From Ilumatobacteraceae bacterium (GTDB lineage: Bacteria; Actinomycetota; Acidimicrobiia; Acidimicrobiales; Ilumatobacteraceae): a stretch of DNA of 64,000 nucleotides. Location: contig JAWPMO010000001.1 of the NCBI GenBank assembly GCA_033344875.1, positions 3,001,595 through 3,065,594 of the forward strand, in the 5' to 3' direction. The first letter of the stretch is position 1; each line of letters opens with the position of its first letter. Under the pieces are notes generated by a model that was not told the DNA's origin, did no database searches, and saw only the letters and a list, made by a program, of their open reading frames with translations. Made by a program: the position numbers and the translations under genes. Below are positions 40,401-50,542 of this stretch, piece after piece.

Positions 40401-41645
40401 TCAGTTGCCGCCCTCGTTCAAGGTGACCTCGATCGCCGTGAAACCGGAACCGGTCGTGTCGTCACCGGTCTGGATGTGGGTCCACGCCTCCTCGACGATC
40501 TCGTTGGTGTACGCACCCTCGGTCGGCGGCGCGGTGAGCACCGTGGCGCCTTCGAGGTTCGGCGTGCCCTGGGCGATCTCGACCGTGCGATCCCAGGCGG
40601 CCGGGTCGATGTAGCCGATGCCGTTCTCGGACGGCCAGATCAGCTTGTTGACCTCGTTGGTCTGCCACAGCTGGTGGCTGGCACCGAGCGTCGGGCCGGC
40701 GGCGAGCACGATGTCGGCGCACTCCTGCACGTTGTCGCGGCAGTACATCCAACCCTCCATCGAGGCGGCGACGAACGACACGGCGAGCGACCGATAGTCC
40801 TCGTCGTTGGCGAGCTTGTCGGCATCGGCCCAGATCGCGTCCTGGAGCATGCCCACGCCGACGTCTTCGTAGCTGATCACGTTGAAGTCGTCTGGCGTGT
40901 AGAGCTCACCGGTGTCGGGGTTGATCGCTTCGAGGACCTGGGCGTACTCGTTGTACGTCATGGCCTCGGCGGCGTCGATGTCGCCTTCGAGCAGCGCGAC
41001 CATGTCGAAGTTCTGGCCGACCAACTCGACGTCGGAGGCCGGGTCGAGACCCTCGGCGCCGAGTGCGGCGAAGACCTCGTACTCGTTGCCGAAACCCCAG
41101 TTGCCGATCTTCTTGCCGGCGAAGTCGGCGGGCGACGTGATGCCGGCGTCGGCGAACGACACCTGCAGGGTGCCGGAGCGCTGGAAGATCTGGGCGATGT
41201 TCACGATGTTCGCCCCGGCTTCACGGCTGGCCAGCGCCTTCGGCACCCACGCGAGCGCGAAGTCGACGTCACCGTTGGCGAGCTGCGTCTGCGGCACGAT
41301 GTCGAGACCGCCTTCGACGATCGTGACGTCGAGGCAATGGTTCTCGTAGAAGCCCTGGTCGACGGCGGCGTAGTAGCCGGCGAACTGAGCCTGCGTGAAC
41401 CACTGGAGCTGCAGGCTCGCCTCGCGCGGCGTCTCGCACTCCATCGCCATGTCGTCGCTCATGTCATCGGACATGTCGTCGCTCATGTCGTCGCTCATGT
41501 CGTCGGAGGTGTCCTCCGCCGGCGGGTCGGTGGCCGCTGGTGTGGCGTCGTCGTCGTCACCCCCGCAGGCGGTCGCGACGAGGGCCAGCGCCGCGAGTGC
41601 GCCGACCGCCCTGGTGATCGTTCGAGTGTTCCTTCGTGTGTTCAT
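40401..41645 (-). CDS. NMT1/THI5-type ABC substrate-binding lipoprotein
   Basis: 414 residues. The lipoprotein signal ends at Cys27 (ALVATAC). A low-complexity acidic segment with repeated Asp-Asp-Met-Ser (about 48-68) precedes an NMT1/THI5 fold: LQLQWFTQAQFAGYYAAVDQGFYE, VDFALAWVPKAL, GNWGFGNEYEVFAALGAEG. Relatives bind pyrimidine, sulfonate or nitrate-type ligands. The start overlaps the permease stop by four bases. Proximity to dihydropyrimidinase genes suggests a pyrimidine or hydantoin ligand; this is an inference. Confidence 0.85.
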   Translation of the reverse strand: MNTRRNTRTITRAVGALAALALVATACGGDDDDATPAATDPPAEDTSDDMSDDMSDDMSDDMSDDMAMECETPREASLQLQWFTQAQFAGYYAAVDQGFYENHCLDVTIVEGGLDIVPQTQLANGDVDFALAWVPKALASREAGANIVNIAQIFQRSGTLQVSFADAGITSPADFAGKKIGNWGFGNEYEVFAALGAEGLDPASDVELVGQNFDMVALLEGDIDAAEAMTYNEYAQVLEAINPDTGELYTPDDFNVISYEDVGVGMLQDAIWADADKLANDEDYRSLAVSFVAASMEGWMYCRDNVQECADIVLAAGPTLGASHQLWQTNEVNKLIWPSENGIGYIDPAAWDRTVEIAQGTPNLEGATVLTAPPTEGAYTNEIVEEAWTHIQTGDDTTGSGFTAIEVTLNEGGN

Positions 41646-42427
41646 GCTGTTGCTCCCCCGGGGACGGATCCCCGTCTGTGTGTGGTGATGGCCTCCAAGG
41701 CGATGGAGACGAGATAGAACGCCAGGCCGAGCAGGCACGCACCGATCACGTATGCCCAGGCAACGGCCGTCTTGGAGTTCGCGAAGTTGGACGGGATGAA
41801 GTAGCCGAGACCGTTCTGGCGGCCGCCGAAGTATTCCGAGACGAAGGCGGTGATCACGGCGGTCGGCGCCGCGATCTTGAGGGCCGTGAACAGGTACGGC
41901 AGCGCATTCGGGATACGCGTCTTCAGGAGGATCATGGTCGGCGAGGCAGCATACGACCGCATCAACTCCAAGTGCGTCGCGTGCACCTGGCGCAGTCCCT
42001 TGGCGACGTTGGTCAACACGATGAAGAACACGATCAACGTCACCATCAGGCGGCGCGGGATCTCACTCGTGCTCGCGTACATGTTCTGGAACACGGCGAC
42101 CAGGACGACGATCGGGATCGCGTTGAGCGCCACTGCGAGCGGCGACACGAGTTCGTTGAGCAGGTTGAACCGCATCAGCAGGAAGCTGGCAGCGACGCCC
42201 AACAGCGTGCCGGCGACCAACCCGACCAGGGCGTTGGACCCCGACACGAACGCGGCGCTGCGGATCAACCCCGGGTTGTCGACGAACGCATCCCAGATCG
42301 CCGATGGTGCCGGCAGGAAGTACGGCTTCAGGTCGAACCCCTTCACGGTCGCTTCCCACGCGACGACGAAGAGCACGCCGAACATCGCCGGCGGCACGAC
42401 GGTGACGAGCAGGCGACGAACACTCAT
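41642..42427 (-). CDS. ABC transporter permease (NitT/TauT type)
   Basis: 261 residues, about six helices. The EAA loop is MRSYAASPTMILLKTRIPNALPYLFTALKIAAP. It overlaps the ATPase gene by 4 bp upstream and the binding-protein gene by 4 bp downstream, so it is a core operon member. It pairs with the second permease at 43247-44119 to form a heterodimeric channel. Confidence 0.88.
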   Translation of the reverse strand: MSVRRLLVTVVPPAMFGVLFVVAWEATVKGFDLKPYFLPAPSAIWDAFVDNPGLIRSAAFVSGSNALVGLVAGTLLGVAASFLLMRFNLLNELVSPLAVALNAIPIVVLVAVFQNMYASTSEIPRRLMVTLIVFFIVLTNVAKGLRQVHATHLELMRSYAASPTMILLKTRIPNALPYLFTALKIAAPTAVITAFVSEYFGGRQNGLGYFIPSNFANSKTAVAWAYVIGACLLGLAFYLVSIALEAITTHRRGSVPGGATA

Positions 42428-43218
42428 CGGTCGTCGACCCCGCCCCGTACCGCCTCGCCGCTGCGCAACGCCTCGCGCACTGCCGTGATCGACGAGTAGA
42501 AGTGGTCGTCCTCGCGGGTGTCCTCGTCGCGGCTCGGGCCCAGCCCGATGTCGACGATGTCGGTGATGCGACCGGGCCGCGGCGACATCACGACGACCCG
42601 ATCCGACAGATAGACGGCCTCGGGAATCGAGTGCGTCACGAACACGACCGTCGTCTTGGTCGCCGCACAGATGCGGAGCAACTCCGCCTGCATGTGTTCA
42701 CGGGTCATCTCGTCGAGCGCGCCGAACGGTTCGTCCATCAGCAGCAACTGCGGATGGGCGGCGAGCGCCCGAGCGATCGCGATCCGTTGCTGCATACCCC
42801 CCGAGAGTTGCCACGGCATGTGTCGGGAGAATTCCGGGAGCTTGACGAGTTCGAGCATCTCGTGTGCGCGCGCCCGGCGTTTCGCCTTGTCCCAGCCCTT
42901 CAACTCGAGCGGCAGCTCGATGTTCTTCTCGACCGACCGCCACTCGAACAGACCGGACTGCTGGAACGCCATGCCGTAGTCCTGGTCGAGTCGCGCCTGT
43001 GCCGCCGACTTGCCGTTGACCAACACGTCGCCGACCGTCGGCTCGATGAGGTTGGCGATCAGCCGCAACAGCGTCGACTTGCCGCAACCGGACGGGCCGA
43101 TCAGCGACACGAACTCACCCGGCTCGACCGTCAGCGTGACGTCGACGAGCGCGTCGACCTGATTCGCCTGCCCCTCGTTGAACGCCTTCGACACGCTGTT
43201 GACGACGACACCACTCAT
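42424..43218 (-). CDS. ABC transporter ATP-binding protein (NitT/TauT type)
   Basis: 264 residues. Walker A is GPSGCGKST, the Q-loop is in YGMAFQQSGLFEW, the signature is LSGGMQQR, Walker B is LLLMDEPFGALD, and the H-loop is in VTHSIPEAV. This subfamily energises taurine/nitrate/thiamine-precursor importers. The ATG at 43218 follows the first permease stop by 28 bp. The coding region overlaps the second permease by four bases. Confidence 0.92.
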   Translation of the reverse strand: MSGVVVNSVSKAFNEGQANQVDALVDVTLTVEPGEFVSLIGPSGCGKSTLLRLIANLIEPTVGDVLVNGKSAAQARLDQDYGMAFQQSGLFEWRSVEKNIELPLELKGWDKAKRRARAHEMLELVKLPEFSRHMPWQLSGGMQQRIAIARALAAHPQLLLMDEPFGALDEMTREHMQAELLRICAATKTTVVFVTHSIPEAVYLSDRVVVMSPRPGRITDIVDIGLGPSRDEDTREDDHFYSSITAVREALRSGEAVRGGVDDR

Positions 43219-43246
43219 GCACGTTCCTCCATGGGTACGAACTCCA

Positions 43247-44119
43247 TCACGACGCTTCCTCACGGGGTCGGTTCCGCATCACCAGGATCTCGACGGCGAC
43301 GACCGCCCCGAACAGGACCATGCCGAGCGCCGCGGCTCCGAACACGGCCGAGTACAACTTCTCCGGGTCGCCCGTCGACGCCTGCAGGTACGACAGCACC
43401 GCCCGGCCGATGCCGCCGCGGATGCCGGTGGAGATCTCCGAGACGATCACGCCGACCACCGACAGCGTCGCCGCCAACTTGAGCGCCGGCACCATGTGCG
43501 GCACCGCGGCGGGGAAGCGGAGCTTCAGCGTGGTGCGCCACCAGCCGGCGGCGTAGCTGTCCATCAGTTCGAGCGCTGCGGACGGCGCCGACTGCAGACC
43601 GCGCAGCGTGCCGACCGCGACCGGGAAGAACGCCAGGAACGCCGCCAGCAGGCAGACCGAGGCCCACCGCGGCCACTCCCACCCGAACAGGTCGAGGCGA
43701 CCGCTCCAGCTCACCACCTGTGGGGCGAGGGCGATCAGCGGCACGGTCTGCGACATGATCACCCACGGGAGCAGGCCCCGCTCGACGATCCGGAACCGGG
43801 CCATCAGCACCGCGAGGAACACACCGATCACGCCGCCGAGCACGAGCCCGACGAACGCCAACCGGAACGTGTACCAGGAGTAGCCGAGCACCGTCCGCCA
43901 GATCGGTTCGGTGCCGGCGCTGGTTTCTGGCTCGGTCAGACGAGTGACGATGTCCCAGGTGTGCGGCATCGCACGGTTGGACGCCTTGGGGATGACCCGC
44001 ACGCCGAAGACCGATCCCCCGTCGTCGGGTCCGACGACCTTGTACAGCTCCCAGAGGGAGGCGACCAGGAACAGGGCGACGCAGAACAGTGCGGCTCGGC
44101 GCGCAGCTCGTCGGATCAC
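43247..44119 (-). CDS. ABC transporter permease (NitT/TauT type), second subunit
   Basis: 290 residues. A first helix is followed by a long extracytoplasmic loop (about 28-75) and then five helices. The EAA region is LMDSYAAGWWRTTLKLRFPAAVPHMVPALK. It begins 9 bp after the LLM enzyme stop, so the importer is expressed with that enzyme. The long loop after helix 1 is less usual and might contact the binding protein. Confidence 0.88.
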   Translation of the reverse strand: MIRRAARRAALFCVALFLVASLWELYKVVGPDDGGSVFGVRVIPKASNRAMPHTWDIVTRLTEPETSAGTEPIWRTVLGYSWYTFRLAFVGLVLGGVIGVFLAVLMARFRIVERGLLPWVIMSQTVPLIALAPQVVSWSGRLDLFGWEWPRWASVCLLAAFLAFFPVAVGTLRGLQSAPSAALELMDSYAAGWWRTTLKLRFPAAVPHMVPALKLAATLSVVGVIVSEISTGIRGGIGRAVLSYLQASTGDPEKLYSAVFGAAALGMVLFGAVVAVEILVMRNRPREEAS

Positions 44120-44128
44120 GGACGAAGA

Positions 44129-45160
44129 CTACGACTTGGCGAGCGTGTGCTCGTCGAGCTGCGGGATGATGTGCTCGCCGTACTCGAGCAGCGTGTGGTC
44201 CTTGCCGTCGTGCTGGAGGTAGATCGCGAACTGATCGACACCGAGATCACGGAGCTCTTCGAGACGACGCAGGTGCTCGTCGGGCGGGCCGAGGATGCAG
44301 AAGCGGTCGACGATCTCGTCGGGCACGAAGTCGGCGTGCGTGTTGCCGGCCTGGCCGTGCTGGTTGTAGTCGTAGCCCTCGCGGCCCTTGATGTAGTCGG
44401 TCAGCGCCTGCGGGATACCGTCGGCCCGGTCGCCGTAGCGGGCCACCATGTCGGCCACGTGGTTGCCGACCATGCCGCCGAACCAGCGGACCTGGTCGCG
44501 CATGTACGCCATCGACGCATCGTCGGCGTTGCCCACGTACGCCGGCGCGGCGACCACGATCGTCAGGGCGTCGGGGTCGCGACCGGCGTCGGACGCCGCG
44601 GTCCGCACGCTCTCGATGGTCCAGGCGGCGATCTGCGGGTCGGCGAGTTGGAGCACGAACCCGTCGCACGTCTCACCGATCGTCTTCAACGCCTTCGGCC
44701 CGTAGCCGGCGCCGAGCACCTCGAGACGCGACTTCGCCGCCCAGGGCAGCGTGATCGTCGAACCGTTGTACTCGACGCTGCGGCCGTTGGCCAGCTCGCG
44801 GATCACGTGGATCGACTCGGCCATCGTGGCGAGCGTCGTCGGCTTCCCGTTGGTGACCCGAACCGCCGAGTCGCCACGCCCCATCGAGCAGATCGTGCGG
44901 TTGCCGTACATCTCGTTGAGCGTGGCGTAGGTGCTCGCCGTGACCGTCCAGTCGCGAGTGGCCGGATTGGTGACCATCGGGCCGACGATCACGTTGCGGG
45001 TCTCGGCCAGGATCTGGCTGTAGATGACGTACGGCTCCTCCCACAGGATGTGGGAGTCGAAGGTCCAGACGTGCGAGAAACCGAGCGACTCCGCCCGTTT
45101 CGCCAACTCCACCACCCGCAACGCAGGAGGGGTCGTTTGGAGCACGATGCCGACGTCCAT
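44129..45160 (-). CDS. luciferase-like (F420-type) oxidoreductase in the ABC operon
   Basis: 343 residues, TIM-barrel LLM protein: VGIVLQTTPPALRVVELAKRAESLGFSHVWTFDSH, GRGDSAVRV and LEVLGAGYGPKALKTIGE. It resembles the TIGR03842-like F420 group rather than FMN monooxygenases, but cofactor choice needs proof. It is the first gene of the ABC operon, whose promoter matches that of the ureidopropionase gene 5.4 kb away. That ties it to pyrimidine/hydantoin breakdown. Its reaction could be reduction or ring oxygenation of a pyrimidine-like compound (RutA is an LLM-fold example); this is an inference. Confidence 0.82.
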   Translation of the reverse strand: MDVGIVLQTTPPALRVVELAKRAESLGFSHVWTFDSHILWEEPYVIYSQILAETRNVIVGPMVTNPATRDWTVTASTYATLNEMYGNRTICSMGRGDSAVRVTNGKPTTLATMAESIHVIRELANGRSVEYNGSTITLPWAAKSRLEVLGAGYGPKALKTIGETCDGFVLQLADPQIAAWTIESVRTAASDAGRDPDALTIVVAAPAYVGNADDASMAYMRDQVRWFGGMVGNHVADMVARYGDRADGIPQALTDYIKGREGYDYNQHGQAGNTHADFVPDEIVDRFCILGPPDEHLRRLEELRDLGVDQFAIYLQHDGKDHTLLEYGEHIIPQLDEHTLAKS

Positions 45161-45166
45161 GCCGAG

Positions 45167-45198
45167 ACACTACCGATGCGTTTGACAGGACGTAAAGG
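45167..45198 (-). promoter_or_regulatory. leaderless promoter of the LLM-ABC operon
   Basis: On the minus strand: -35 TTTACG (45196-45191), 18-bp spacer, -10 TAGTGT (45172-45167), then 6 bp to the ATG. The shared block CCTTTACG-N4-GTCAA also occurs upstream of the ureidopropionase gene at exactly the same distance from the start. The half-sites read TTTAC-N5-GTCAA, a possible operator. Confidence 0.6.
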
Positions 45199-45243
45199 TC
45201 CCGGGTCGTCGTCACAGGCTGTTCACACGCCGAGCGACACCGG

Positions 45244-45279
45244 CCGGGGCGCACGGGGCGGCCGGGGCGCACGGGGCGG
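45244..45279. repeat. 18-bp tandem duplication
   Basis: Two perfect copies of CCGGGGCGCACGGGGCGG directly upstream of the candidate -10 (TAGCCT, 45297-45302) of the gdx transcript. Confidence 0.9.
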
Positions 45280-45325
45280 CCGGACCGGACGCTGGCTAGC
45301 CTGGGCAGCGAGTCACCACGACTCA

Positions 45326-45366
45326 CCGACGAGGGGCGCACCGTACCGGCCGGACAAGACGGGCGC
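45326..45366 (+). promoter_or_regulatory. guanidine-III (ykkC-III) riboswitch
   Basis: 41 nt with the conserved elements of the class in order: CCG-ACGAGG, GCGC, CCGTACC, GGACAAGACGG, GCGC. GCGC(A)CCGT (45336-45344, one bulged A) can pair with ACGGGCGC (45359-45366). CCG (45326-45328) pairs with CGG (45347-45349). This reproduces the class's pseudoknot. The sequence and spacing closely match the known Thermobifida fusca example. The 3' strand directly abuts the ribosome site AGGAGA (45367-45372). Guanidine binding should therefore set access to the start of the downstream exporter. Confidence 0.9.
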
Positions 45367-45378
45367 AGGAGATCATCG

Positions 45379-45699
45379 ATGAACTGGCTCATCCTCGCCG
45401 TCGCCGGACTGTTCGAAGTCGCCTGGGCGTCGCTGCTCCCGGAGACGAAGGGATTCACCCGTCCGGGTCCGACCGCGGGCTTCTTCGTCACCCTGGGCAT
45501 CAGCATGTACCTGCTGAGCGTGGCGACGCGCACGATCCCGATCGGCACGGGGTACGCCGTCTGGGTCGGCATCGGCGCCGTCGGCGCATTCGTCGTGTCA
45601 ACCGTGTTCCGACAGCAGCCGACGAGTGCCGCCCAAGTCGTCGCGATCGGCGCGCTGATCACCGCGATCGTCGCGGTCAAGCTGACCGCGACGCACTGA
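45379..45699 (+). CDS. gdx: small multidrug resistance-family guanidinium exporter (Gdx/SugE)
   Basis: 106 residues with four helices. Glu13 (AGLFEVAW) is the essential carboxylate, and TGYAVWVGIGAVG is the Gdx/SugE signature that separates it from EmrE-type drug pumps. It exports guanidinium in exchange for protons as an antiparallel dimer. A guanidine-III riboswitch overlaps its translation start region, which confirms the substrate. It diverges from the LLM-ABC operon and converges on the semialdehyde dehydrogenase gene 20 bp away. Confidence 0.95.
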   Translation: MNWLILAVAGLFEVAWASLLPETKGFTRPGPTAGFFVTLGISMYLLSVATRTIPIGTGYAVWVGIGAVGAFVVSTVFRQQPTSAAQVVAIGALITAIVAVKLTATH

Positions 45700-45719
45700 G
45701 GCAACGCGCCGAACGCGGG

Positions 45720-47204
45720 TCAGCGGGTCTCGGGGAAGCCGAGGTCGACCGAGCTGGATGCGGGATCGGGCCAACGACTCGTGACCACCTTGCCGCGGGT
45801 GTAGAAGTTGATGCCCTCCGGGCCGTACATGTGGGTGTCGCCGAACAGGCTCGCCTTCCAGCCGCCGAAGCTGTAATAGCTGACCGGCACCGGGATCGGG
45901 ACGTTGATGCCGACCATGCCGACCTCGATCTCGAACTGGAACTCGCGAGCGGCACCGCCGTCGCGGGTGAAGATCGCCGTGCCGTTGGCGAACGGGCTGG
46001 CGTTGATCATCTCGACGCCCTCCTCGTAGCCGCTGACCCGTGTCACCGACAGCACCGGCCCGAAGATCTCGTCGTCGTAGCACTTCATGCCGGGCGTGAC
46101 GTTGTCGATCAGTGTGGGGTTGACGAAGTAGCCGCCGTCATTCGACTCGGGCCGACCGTCGACGACGATCGTCGCGCCTTCGGCGGGCGCGTTCTCGATG
46201 TAGCCCGTCACCCGGTCGCGCGACTCGGCGGTGATCAGCGGGCCCATCTCGCTGTCGGGTTCCATGCCGTTGCCGACCTTGACCTGCGGGATCCGCTCGG
46301 CGATCTTGGCGACGAGGTCGTCGGCGATCGCATCGGCCGCGAGCACGACGCTGATCGCCATGCAGCGTTCGCCGGCCGAACCGTACGCCGCGCCGATCGC
46401 GGCGTCGGCCGCCATGTCGAGGTCGGCATCGGCCAACACGAGCATGTGGTTCTTGGCGCCGCCGAGGGCCTGGACGCGCTTGCCGTTGCGCGTGCCGGTC
46501 TCGTAGATGTACTTCGCGATCGGGGTCGAGCCGACGAAGCTCACGGCCGCGACATCGTCGTGTTCGAGGAGGCGATCGACCGCGACCTTGTCACCCTGCA
46601 CGATGTTGAAGCAGCCATCGGGCAGGCCGGCCTGCTTCAACAGGTCAGCGATGAACATCGTCACCGACGGATCCTTCTCGCTCGGCTTGAGCACGAACGT
46701 GTTGCCGCACGCGAGCGCGTTGGCGAACATCCACATCGGGACCATCGCCGGGAAGTTGAACGGCGTGATGCCGGCCACCACACCGAGCGGCTGACGGATC
46801 GAGTACACGTCGACCCCCGTCGACGCCTGCTCGGAGAAGCCGCCCTTGAGCAGGTGCGGCACGCCGCACGCGAACTCGATGTTCTCGAGGCCGCGAGCGA
46901 CCTCGCCCAACGAGTCGGAGAGCACCTTGCCGTGCTCGGCGGTGAGCAGCGACGCGATCTCCTTGCGGTTCGCGTCGACGAGTTCACGCATGCGGAACAG
47001 GATCTCGGCCCGCTTCGACAGGCTCGTCGCCCTCCAGCCGGGCGCCGCGGCCTTGGCCGCCGCGACCGCAGCGTCGACCTCGTCGACCGACGCGAGCGCG
47101 ACCACGCCCGACTGCTCGCCGAGAGCAGGGTTGTAGACCGGTGCCGTACGTCCCGACGTGGATGCGACGACCTTGCCGTCGATCCAATGCTGAATTTCGT
47201 TCAT
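45720..47204 (-). CDS. mmsA: CoA-acylating methylmalonate/malonate-semialdehyde dehydrogenase
   Basis: 494 residues of the aldehyde dehydrogenase fold. GVVAGITPFNFPAMVPMWMF and LKPSEKDPS bind NAD, and catalytic Cys281 is in SAGERCMAIS. EVGMVGINVPIPVPVSYYSFGG is the MmsA/IolA signature. It turns methylmalonate- or malonate-semialdehyde into propionyl- or acetyl-CoA. In pyrimidine degradation malonate semialdehyde arises from beta-alanine, so it would be the last step here. Inositol or valine breakdown is the alternative; no other such genes are near. Confidence 0.92.
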   Translation of the reverse strand: MNEIQHWIDGKVVASTSGRTAPVYNPALGEQSGVVALASVDEVDAAVAAAKAAAPGWRATSLSKRAEILFRMRELVDANRKEIASLLTAEHGKVLSDSLGEVARGLENIEFACGVPHLLKGGFSEQASTGVDVYSIRQPLGVVAGITPFNFPAMVPMWMFANALACGNTFVLKPSEKDPSVTMFIADLLKQAGLPDGCFNIVQGDKVAVDRLLEHDDVAAVSFVGSTPIAKYIYETGTRNGKRVQALGGAKNHMLVLADADLDMAADAAIGAAYGSAGERCMAISVVLAADAIADDLVAKIAERIPQVKVGNGMEPDSEMGPLITAESRDRVTGYIENAPAEGATIVVDGRPESNDGGYFVNPTLIDNVTPGMKCYDDEIFGPVLSVTRVSGYEEGVEMINASPFANGTAIFTRDGGAAREFQFEIEVGMVGINVPIPVPVSYYSFGGWKASLFGDTHMYGPEGINFYTRGKVVTSRWPDPASSSVDLGFPETR

Positions 47205-47349
47205 GCTGTTCCCCTTCGAGTCGGAGCCATGGATTGGAGCGCTCTACCCCTGACGCTCACTGTACGCCGGACCGAGTCCGACCGTCAGCCTGCGCGAGCC
47301 ATCCAAGCAGATGCACCCAGCCGTGTCGACGGGCGACGCCGCCCGGACG

Positions 47350-47387
47350 CGGAACGTCCCGGCCGGCGGACCGACCGGGACGTTCCG
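47350..47387 (-). terminator. 13-bp hairpin after the CHRD-like gene
   Basis: CGGAACGTCCCGG pairs perfectly with CCGGGACGTTCCG around a 12-nt loop. It starts 30 bp after the stop of the secreted protein gene. The rest of the 212-bp gap is the mmsA upstream region, where I see no further signal. Confidence 0.75.
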
Positions 47388-47416
47388 GGTATCAGGCGCT
47401 GATGGTGTCCGGAGAC

Positions 47417-48049
47417 TCAGTTCGGGACACCGCCGCACAGCACGGGGGCCGTCAGCTCGAGCGGGGCACCGGCCACGATCGACGACTCCATCGATGCGAA
47501 CGCGTCGTCGTCGTTGATGGCGTACTCGCCGTTGCCGTCGAAGTCGATACCGTGCACCACGACCTGGGCCGTGCCGGCGATCTCACCGAGCGTCATCGTG
47601 TCGTCCTCGGCGAGCGGGGTGTCGGCCGGGAACATGGCCGAGTACGAGATCGTGCCGTCGGCGTCGGCGATCTGGGTGTCGAGTCCCAGCTGGATGCCGC
47701 CGTAGACCGGGGCACCGTCCAGGACCGTCACCACGTCGTCGGCCGTCCCTGATGGACAGTCGCTGGGCGCGTCGCCCAGGACGTCGTGGAGATGCATCAG
47801 GTGCGGGAGGTTCGGTGCCAGGCCCGATGCCTCGACCTGCACCTTGACCTTGCCGTTCGGCAGCGTCGTGATCTTGGTCCATCCGGTGGCCTGGGAGTTG
47901 GGGATGCTCGCATCCTGCACCGGATTCAGATCGTACGTGTACTTCGCGACCTTCGAGCTGGGCACGCCGTCGTGAGCGGCGAGTGCGGTGCCGCCGACGC
48001 CGAGGCCGGCGACGAGGGCCGCGGTGGCGGCGATCATGGTCTTCTTCAT
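47417..48049 (-). CDS. secreted CHRD-like protein
   Basis: 210 residues. A cleavable signal (MKKTMIAATAALVAGLGVGGTALAA) is followed by a beta-rich domain with GWTKITTLPNGKVKVQVEASGLAPNLPHLMHLHDV. That pattern of CHRD/superoxide-dismutase-like proteins includes the HLH pair. An EF-hand-like DFDGNGEYAINDDD follows. Two cysteines (CPSG and the C-terminal LCGG) may form a disulphide. Function is unknown; extracellular metal binding is plausible. It is flanked by pyrimidine-pathway genes but has its own hairpin terminator. Confidence 0.7.
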   Translation of the reverse strand: MKKTMIAATAALVAGLGVGGTALAAHDGVPSSKVAKYTYDLNPVQDASIPNSQATGWTKITTLPNGKVKVQVEASGLAPNLPHLMHLHDVLGDAPSDCPSGTADDVVTVLDGAPVYGGIQLGLDTQIADADGTISYSAMFPADTPLAEDDTMTLGEIAGTAQVVVHGIDFDGNGEYAINDDDAFASMESSIVAGAPLELTAPVLCGGVPN

Positions 48050-48195
48050 CAGTGGTCCTTTCGTGTCGGCGGGTCGAACCCCGAGGTCGGAGTTCTTCGC
48101 TGTCGGTTCCGCCGATCACCACTGGTTCGGAACACGAGAGGAACTGGATGGGAAATCGTCAAGATTTCTTCTGGTGACCCGATCGACCCTCGTCA

Positions 48196-48219
48196 GATCG
48201 GGCCGCGCTCGGCCGGATC
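48196..48219 (-). terminator. hairpin after the dihydropyrimidinase gene
   Basis: GATC, one mismatch, then GGCCG pairs with CGGCC and GATC around a 4-nt loop, 5 bp after the stop. No U-tract. The remainder of this gap (48050-48195) is the upstream region of the secreted protein. Confidence 0.5.
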
Positions 48220-48223
48220 GGGC

Positions 48224-49639
48224 TCAGTGCAGGTAGTTGCTGAGGCCGCGCTTGACGTACTGACCGTGGCCGACCTTGCCGGTGAACGTGTCGTTCTCCA
48301 TCACGACCATGCCGCGGCTCATCACGGTGTCGACCTTGCCGTCGATCTCGAAACCCTCCCAGGCCGAGTGGTCCATGTTCATGTGGTGCTTGTCGTTGAT
48401 GCCGAGCTTGGTGTGCCCGTTCGGGTCCCATACGAGGATGTCGGCGTCGAGGCCCGGCGCGATCGCGCCCTTCTTGTCGAGGCCGAACATGCGCGCCGGT
48501 GTGGTGCAGCAGGTCTCGACCCACCGCTCGAGCGTGATCTCTCCGGTGACGACGCCCTGATACAGCAGCTCCATCCGGTGTTCGACCGAGCCGATGCCGT
48601 TGGGGATCGCCGAGAAGTTGCCGAGGCCGAGCTCTTTCTGGTCCTTCATGCAGAACGGGCAGTGGTCGGTCGAGACGACCGCCAGCTCGTTCATCCGGAG
48701 ACCCTTCCAGAGGTCGCTCTGGTGGTGCTCGTGCTTGGTGCGCAGCGGCGTGGAGCACACCCACTTGGCACCCTCGAAACCGGGCTGCATCAACTGGTCT
48801 TCGAGCGACAGGTACAGGTACTGCGGGCAGGTCTCGGCGAACACGTTGAGGCCGGCGTGCTGCGCGGCGGCGACCTCTTCGAGCGCCTCGCTGGCCGACA
48901 TGTGCACGATGTAGAGCGGCACGTTGCCGGCGACCTTCGAGAGTTCGATCGCCCGGTGCGTGGCTTCGGCCTCGAGCTCGACCGGCCGGGTGAGCGAGTG
49001 GTACATCGGATCGGTTTGGCCCTTGGCCAGCGCCTGCGCGACCAGCACGTCGATCGCGATGCCGTTCTCGGCGTGCATCATGATCATCGCCCCGGACTCG
49101 CCGGCGTTCTGCATCGCCCGCAGGATCTGTCCGTCGTCGGAGTAGAACACGCCCGGGTAGGCCATGAACAGCTTGAAGCTGGTGATGCCCTCGTGGTCGA
49201 CGAGGTACGTCATCGCCTTGAGCGACTGCTCGTCGACACCGCCGATGATCTGGTGGAACGCGTAGTCGATCGCACAGTTGCCGGCGGCCTTCTCGTGCCA
49301 GGTGGCGAGGCCCTCCTGCACGTCGTTGCCGGCGGTCTGCACGGCGAAGTCGACGATCGTGGTGATGCCACCCCACGCGGCGGCGATCGTGCCGGTCTCG
49401 AACGTGTCGGACGCGGCGGTGCCGCCGAACGGCAGCTCCATGTGCGTGTGGGCGTCGATGCCGCCGGGGACGACGTACTTGCCCGTGGCGTCGATCGTGC
49501 GGTCGGCGGTGATGCCGAGTCCTGCGGCCTGACCGGGGGCCAGGACACCGACGATCGTCTCGCCGTCGATCAGGACGTCGCCGGCCTGACGACCGGTGGC
49601 GGACACGATCGTGCCGTTCTGGATGAGTGTGCGTGCCAT
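48224..49639 (-). CDS. hydA: dihydropyrimidinase / D-hydantoinase
   Basis: 471 residues of the cyclic amidohydrolase fold. Metal ligands H64 and H66 are in GGIDAHTHMELPFGG, the bridging lysine K156 in TSFKLFMAYPG, then further His and STDHCPF (Asp). It opens dihydrouracil or 5-substituted hydantoins to N-carbamoyl amino acids. ATG 49639 follows a GTGAGGG ribosome site. The upstream ureidopropionase gene is on the same strand 60 bp away, and between them lies a perfect 31-bp palindrome. HydA then ureidopropionase are consecutive pathway steps. Confidence 0.92.
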   Translation of the reverse strand: MARTLIQNGTIVSATGRQAGDVLIDGETIVGVLAPGQAAGLGITADRTIDATGKYVVPGGIDAHTHMELPFGGTAASDTFETGTIAAAWGGITTIVDFAVQTAGNDVQEGLATWHEKAAGNCAIDYAFHQIIGGVDEQSLKAMTYLVDHEGITSFKLFMAYPGVFYSDDGQILRAMQNAGESGAMIMMHAENGIAIDVLVAQALAKGQTDPMYHSLTRPVELEAEATHRAIELSKVAGNVPLYIVHMSASEALEEVAAAQHAGLNVFAETCPQYLYLSLEDQLMQPGFEGAKWVCSTPLRTKHEHHQSDLWKGLRMNELAVVSTDHCPFCMKDQKELGLGNFSAIPNGIGSVEHRMELLYQGVVTGEITLERWVETCCTTPARMFGLDKKGAIAPGLDADILVWDPNGHTKLGINDKHHMNMDHSAWEGFEIDGKVDTVMSRGMVVMENDTFTGKVGHGQYVKRGLSNYLH

Positions 49640-49669
49640 GTGGCCCTCACTTTCGGTAGGAGCGGACGG

Positions 49670-49700
49670 ATCACGAGTTGTGCCTGGCACAACTCGTGAT
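49670..49700. repeat. 31-bp perfect palindrome between two pyrimidine genes
   Basis: Arms ATCACGAGTTGTGCC and GGCACAACTCGTGAT (15 bp) around a single central T. On the minus-strand mRNA it would form a strong hairpin between the ureidopropionase stop and the dihydropyrimidinase ribosome site. The left arm recurs with one change at 19042-19056. Confidence 0.85.
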
Positions 49701-50542
49701 CAGCGGGCGGTGATCTCGTCGTAGGCGTCGGGGCGGCGGTCGCGGTAGAACTGCCAGCCGTCGCGGACCTCGCGGATCAGGCCGAGGTCGAGGTCGCGCA
49801 CGATCAACTCCGGGTTGTGGGGGTCACCCTTGTCGCCGACGTACTGACCGCGGGGGTTCACGAAGTAGCTCTGCCCGTAGAAGTCGTTCTCGCCGAGCGG
49901 CTCGATGCCGACCCGATTGATCGCACCGACGTAGTACATGTTGGCGCAGGCGGCGGCCGGCTGCTCGATGCTCCAGAGGTACTCGGACAACCCTCGGTGC
50001 GTCGCCGACGGGTTGAACACGATCTCGGCGCCGTTGAGACCGAGGCAGCGCCACCCCTCGGGGAAGTGCCGGTCGTAGCAGATGTACACACCGACCTTGC
50101 CGACCGCGGTGTCGAAGACCGGGTACCCGTCGGTGCCGGGGGTGAAATAGAACTTCTCCCAGAAGCCCTTCACCTGCGGGATGTGCTGCTTGCGGTACTT
50201 GCCGAGGTACGTACCGTCGGCGTCGATCACCGCCGCGGTGTTGAAGTAGAGCCCGGCCTGCACGATCTCGTACATCGGCAGCACCATCACCATGCCGAGC
50301 TCCTTGGCGAGGCTCTGGAACCGCTTCGTGGTCGGCCCGTTCGGGATCTCCTCGGTGTAGTCGTAGTACTGCGCGTCCTGCACCTGACAGAAGTACGGCC
50401 CGTAGAACAGCTCCTGGAAGCACATGACCTGAGCACCCTGGGCAGCGGCAGCACGAGCCTGCTCCTCGTGCTTGTCGATCATGGACTCCTTGTCGCCGGT
50501 CCAGTCGGTTTGCAGCAGTGCTGCCTTCACGATGTTCGCCAT
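49700..50542 (-). CDS. beta-ureidopropionase / N-carbamoyl amidohydrolase
   Basis: 280 residues, nitrilase superfamily. The Glu-Lys-Cys triad is visible: E44 in CFQELFYG, K118 in YRKQHIP, C155 in GVYICYDRHFPEG. It hydrolyses N-carbamoyl-beta-alanine to beta-alanine, ammonia and CO2. The length and the FYGPYFC motif fit the bacterial N-carbamoylputrescine/ureidopropionase group, so N-carbamoylputrescine is an alternative. The neighbouring dihydropyrimidinase favours the pyrimidine role. Its promoter is leaderless and matches that of the LLM-ABC operon. Confidence 0.88.
   Translation of the reverse strand: MANIVKAALLQTDWTGDKESMIDKHEEQARAAAAQGAQVMCFQELFYGPYFCQVQDAQYYDYTEEIPNGPTTKRFQSLAKELGMVMVLPMYEIVQAGLYFNTAAVIDADGTYLGKYRKQHIPQVKGFWEKFYFTPGTDGYPVFDTAVGKVGVYICYDRHFPEGWRCLGLNGAEIVFNPSATHRGLSEYLWSIEQPAAACANMYYVGAINRVGIEPLGENDFYGQSYFVNPRGQYVGDKGDPHNPELIVRDLDLGLIREVRDGWQFYRDRRPDAYDEITAR

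Follow-up and report, generated by a model that had tools for sequence, protein, structure and literature searches.

Results and discussion

The gdx gene of an Ilumatobacteraceae bacterium, which encodes a predicted guanidinium exporter, is very probably controlled by a guanidine-III riboswitch of a lineage-specific subtype, as judged from comparison of sequences. The finding is real and of a largely known kind: it is guanidine-III in a trimmed form that is common to related actinobacteria. The locus lies in a stretch of 64,000 nucleotides of contig JAWPMO010000001.1 (hereafter the window, which means the whole stretch of DNA that was analysed), and the sequence and coordinates first given for it were confirmed on the + strand. 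The features, in window coordinates, are as follows.

45297..45302, + strand: likely -10 element TAGCCT (TANNNT), 32 nt before the ACGA core, proposed from conservation
45310..45324, + strand: P0, upstream hairpin GAGUC/GACUC (45310-45314 with 45320-45324; 5 pairs) with loop ACCAC, equivalent to the first hairpin of RF01763
45326..45328, + strand: 5' strand of P1, CCG, pairing with CGG at 45347-45349 (3 pairs against the canonical 4, CCGG/CCGG)
45329..45335, + strand: core ACGAG (45329-45333) and third strand, including C6 (45330), G7 (45331) and A8 (45332) of the guanidine pocket region
45336..45344, + strand: 5' strand of the P2 pseudoknot, GCGC-A-CCGU, in which A45340 is bulged and 45343 is the pocket nucleotide G17
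45345..45349, + strand: A19 and C20, then the 3' strand of P1, CGG
45350..45358, + strand: linker CCGGACAAG, with the canonical GACAAG element
45359..45366, + strand: 3' strand of the P2 pseudoknot, ACGGGCGC, forming 8 bp with the 5' strand around one bulged A
45367..45371, + strand: Shine-Dalgarno (SD) sequence AGGAG, directly 3' of P2
45379..45699, + strand: gdx, Gdx-type SMR predicted guanidinium exporter of 106 aa, assigned by PF00893, the match to 6wk5, the Gdx residues and the clade

Structure of the aptamer

The + strand from 45326 to 45371 reads CCG-ACGAG-GG-GCGCACCGU-AC-CGG-CCGGACAAG-ACGGGCGC-AGGAG, and the ATG follows at 45379. All core nucleotides of guanidine-III (ykkC-III) are present at 45326-45366, with the blocks ACGAG, CCGUAC (45341-45346) and GACGG in this order and with C6, G7 and G17 in place; the pocket positions are those of the Thermobifida fusca crystal structure (PMC5696562), transferred by means of an alignment with canonical sites, L056 among them. 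The loop pairs with the 3' tail to form P2, as in an H-type pseudoknot, and the aptamer precedes a guanidine-related gene, within its 5' UTR and close to the ribosome site. The original prediction stated that the conserved blocks are in order. This holds for the core, which is complete, but the wording hid a one-pair deletion in P1, which is present as CCG/CGG instead of four pairs, and an insertion in P2. That the 3' strand touches the ribosome site was borne out, as AGGAG starts at the base right after P2. At the place of P0, relatives have a hairpin of other sequence, with a mean folding z of -1.0, weak on energy alone.

The predicted pairing of GCGC(A)CCGU with ACGGGCGC was upheld, as 8 bp with one bulged A. 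For 27 distinct motifs, the P2 strands formed 7.59 bp with their own partners and 6.28 bp with swapped partners, and 0/5000 permutations were as good; in the same strand-swap test on the variant set alone (9 distinct motifs), the difference was not significant (p 0.12). Strand swapping was used instead of pair counts on the model-fitted alignment A3 because these counts are weak, four sequences being misregistered there.

Rfam score and comparison across genomes

In a permissive search of 351 nt against 4227 families, RF01763 aligned end to end with 45305-45367 at 32.2 bits (E 3.6e-5). The gathering score of this family is 36 bits, an operational cut-off and not a structural feature, and the window aptamer does not reach it; a scan of the window at the Rfam gathering threshold thus listed only a tRNA. 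A covariance score below threshold had been named beforehand as a result that would refute the assignment, and 32.2 against 36 is formally such a score. One may then ask whether the motif is a chance resemblance, without any regulatory function, in GC-rich DNA ahead of an SMR gene. Besides the score, GC-rich repeats close by speak for chance, as does the single-sequence folding energy of the window RNA, which is no better than that of shuffled sequences (z 0.59). A poor folding z is, however, expected because a GC-rich pseudoknot is beyond what the folding program can represent, although the value lends the riboswitch no support. Against chance stand the E-values and the fact that this is the sole credible RF01763 match in the 5-Mb genome (E 1.2e-4), where the next best scored 17.8 bits (E 0.49). 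No guanidine-I riboswitch was found in the genome. A pattern search with CCGACGAGGNNNNNCCGTACCGG, allowing 2 mismatches, in 395 genomes was too noisy for use.

The comparison of genomes weighs most in this question. An SMR protein search of 149 related genomes found 9 Gdx-type genes, including that of the window, and all nine are preceded by a guanidine-III-like motif at a distance of 19-25 nt from the start codon; in 7/9 loci this motif has the variant form of the window. No guanidine-III-like motif was found upstream of the two Qac-type SMR genes of the same 149 genomes. Two members of the same genus have above-cut-off RF01763 matches (L009/L010, 50-51 bits), each upstream of gdx. We built a covariance model, R1, from these seven variants and used it to search 395 genomes from the class and 396 from the phylum. 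R1 predicted four additional sites, each immediately ahead of an SMR gene (G216, G444, G463 and G636), and its match in G560 is a canonical form before gdx. The weak R1 matches in G410 and G156 (E about 0.008-0.009), which have no SMR gene, were set aside as chance. In G463 (L166/L173), the gdx gene behind the variant aptamer has a broken reading frame, from either a pseudogene or an assembly error.

The same motif is thus found at the same place ahead of orthologous genes in about ten genera, and the model predicted new gdx-linked sites. The chance reading is already contradicted by this comparative sequence evidence, and we regard it as extremely improbable. All 12 variant sites score only 21.5-32.2 bits with RF01763, the window being the best, and therefore the Rfam cut-off misses the whole subtype; in a set mainly of other actinobacteria, 17/20 gdx loci score above it. 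Because the comparison shows a whole lineage-specific subtype below the cut-off, we accepted the window aptamer in spite of its score, and in this respect the comparison overrules the threshold. The assignment to the guanidine-III class, which rests on the full-length RF01763 match, unique in the genome, and on the recurrence of the aptamer before gdx orthologues of many genera, thus stands, and the data support placing the window aptamer with guanidine-III as a divergent variant. It is termed a variant, as opposed to an ordinary member, because it has neither the gathering score nor the four-pair P1.

The pocket nucleotides C6, G7 and G17 and the core are invariant across the variants, which share several departures elsewhere. 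The inner G4-C21 pair of P1 is absent in all 12 variants, whereas a four-pair P1 occurs in all 43 other motif-bearing loci. P2 is longer in most subtype members, and an A is inserted into it in the window and in L119-L121. Since L170 has the same eight P2 pairs without the extra A (GCGCCCGU/ACGGGCGC), A45340 is taken as an insertion. Several subtype members have a linker with one nucleotide fewer and with ACG at its end; that of the window retains GACAAG. The 3' strand of P2 begins 19-25 nt before the start codon in 12/12 variants, with the SD within a few nt after it. The three-pair P1 was treated as a variant and not as an exclusion because P1 is present and its sequence varies among accepted members too, for example in Nocardiopsis L062, which scores 43 bits with a GCGG/CCGC P1. 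This P1, in place of CCGG/CCGG, occurs in Nocardiopsis L062, L069, L077 and L087, a compensated change that supports P1; in these four loci about 345-350 nt separate the motif from the matched gdx downstream, a distance that would fit the first gene of a pair in between. Judging from the alignments, the parts of the aptamer that are free to change appear to be one P1 pair, the length of P2 and the linker, with the ligand pocket fixed. A search of the available literature for guanidine riboswitches in Acidimicrobiia found nothing. With the present locus, guanidine sensing and export would reach into a part of Actinomycetota for which the Rfam cut-off mostly leaves no match.

The Gdx protein and the probable ligand

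The product of gdx belongs to the SMR family (PF00893, 86.4 bits), and its 106 aa agree with the expected length of about 105 aa. Its best PDB match is Gdx-Clo (6wk5, E 8e-25), and E13, W16, S42, Y59, W62 and K101 of Gdx-Clo are all kept. W16 is specific to Gdx, and Qac proteins have Gly/Ala there (PMC7695847); the window protein combines W16 with E13, S42, Y59 and W62, and L127/L128 have the Qac state (Gly/Ala) at position 16. The assignment as Gdx, based at first on Glu13 and a signature, is thereby extended to six residues. The NCBIfam SugE equivalog NF008512 gave 79.3 bits, below its cut-off of 126 bits, yet scored highest among the SMR models.

A tree of 90 SMR proteins, with 105 columns only and many open forks, contains a branch of support 99/92 that separates the intact proteins whose genes follow a variant aptamer, ten in number, from those whose genes follow a canonical one. 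Because of this branch, aptamer subtype and pump clade appear to have gone together in the ten intact gdx genes. One variant-clade Gdx (L039, PKRH01000104.1) had no aptamer in view upstream; its record is titled Thermoanaerobacterales, and the protein groups among actinobacterial proteins.

R1 also matched a further variant, on contig 113 of G106 (L167:1501-1548, - strand; RF01763 25.3 bits, R1 40.4 bits). Its P2 has five pairs only, and it lies just before a gene for a Rieske oxygenase (L172:4476-5585, - strand) related to carnitine/glycine betaine monooxygenases, with no gdx. Relatives of this oxygenase in the family were without the motif. To our knowledge, a Rieske oxygenase gene of this kind has not been described as a target of a guanidine riboswitch.

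The co-segregation of the variant aptamer with a distinct Gdx clade (99/92), together with the G106 variant that precedes an oxygenase and not gdx, could mean that the subtype descends from guanidine-III with a shifted ligand preference, for example for a substituted guanidine, through the short P1 and altered P2, and that the pump adapted likewise; the side opening of the class accepts substituted guanidines (PMC5696562). However, the ligand-contacting C6, G7 and G17 and the core are unchanged, and every guanidinium-site residue that was checked in the transporter is kept, and we consider such a shift very unlikely.

Putative promoter and proposed mechanism of control

No sigma-70 consensus promoter was found at the locus. 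In 10/12 variant loci, TANNNT occurs 18-48 nt before ACGA, and its usual position is -36 to -40; the local background rate is about 0.07. This element, at a near-constant upstream distance, is probably a -10 box. Just upstream of the putative promoter, the window contains a perfect 18-bp tandem duplication of CGGCCGGGGCGCACGGGG (45241-45276).

With guanidine as the favoured ligand, we propose the following mechanism. Transcription would start shortly before the P0 hairpin. When guanidinium rises in the cell, the ion would be held between G7 and G17 over C6 (45331, 45343 and 45330), and the bound ion may stabilise the P1/P2 pseudoknot and the triplex, as suggested by the conserved core and by the structure from T. 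fusca. Once the aptamer has folded, competing structures would disappear and the ribosome site next to P2 would be free, in line with proposals for the class (PMC5696562, PMC12186494). As a result, gdx would be translated and guanidinium pumped out. A toxic ion would be expected to induce its own exporter, and the ON direction of the switch was assigned mainly because of this biological expectation.

In the window RNA, the predicted accessibility of the SD rises from 0.21 to 0.80 once the nucleotides of the aptamer are barred from competing, which is a shift towards exposure. Among relatives this shift is inconsistent and differs in sign, and no conserved anti-SD element was found there. The varying sign would also fit an RNA that binds guanidine but acts otherwise, either because the folded aptamer crowds the ribosome (OFF) or because it mainly protects the mRNA from decay. 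An OFF or mRNA-stability effect is conceivable because in every variant P2 is followed at once by the SD, whereas 16 nt separate the two in T. fusca (PMC5696562), and guanidine-III has been reported to stabilise mRNA as well (PMC12186494). On the other hand, guanidine riboswitches are described as ON switches (PMC5696562), which agrees with induction of a toxic-ion exporter, the shift predicted for the window's own RNA is towards exposure, and the canonical relatives in the genus (L125/L126) have a P2-adjoining SD too. We therefore prefer the ON switch and consider the other modes of action unlikely. It is also quite unlikely that the subtype is a functionally distinct riboswitch, by a shifted ligand preference or by a direct coupling of P2 to the ribosome that differs from the canonical class, with an oxygenase for a guanidine-like compound as a further target.

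Genomic setting

The gdx gene is on the strand opposite to a probable reductive pyrimidine-degradation region (40401-50542, - strand), which includes genes for dihydropyrimidinase, a beta-ureidopropionase-like amidase, methylmalonate-semialdehyde dehydrogenase, an F420-dependent oxidoreductase and an NMT1-type ABC importer. The dehydrogenase and oxidoreductase genes are adjacent in four genus mates (G002, G003, G007 and G009), with gaps of about 28-123 bp. The same gap in the window is about 560 bp (45161-45719) and is filled by the promoter-riboswitch-gdx unit, and because of this difference the unit looks like a recent lineage-specific cassette insertion. The controller of the unit probably responds to guanidine rather than to the pyrimidine pathway. 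The unit, of about 400 bp, appears to behave like a cassette and is placed between metabolic genes that are conserved.

Comparison with known systems

The closest known system is RF01763 as represented by 5NWQ of T. fusca, which shares with the window aptamer the H-type pseudoknot, the upstream hairpin, gdx downstream and an actinobacterial host. A5 C6 G7 A8 G9, C16 G17 U18 A19 C20 and the linker GACAAG are alike in the two, whereas P1 has 3 Watson-Crick pairs in the window and 4 in T. fusca, P2 has 8 pairs with a bulged A in the window and 7 in T. fusca, and the SD follows P2 directly in the window and lies 16 nt on in T. fusca; as a member of RF01763, the window aptamer scores under the gathering cut-off. 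The canonical aptamers of the same genus (L125/G001 and L126/G005, 50-51 bits) are alike in class, in gdx downstream and in the SD next to P2, but differ in the CCGG/CCGG P1, in a short P2 of 6 pairs and in a Gdx that is only 37-39% identical. The window protein resembles Gdx-Clo (6wk5) in length, fold family and E13/W16/S42/Y59/W62/K101, whereas it falls in a separate actinobacterial clade with the signature LLPxTxGFTR / GTGYAVWVGIGA.
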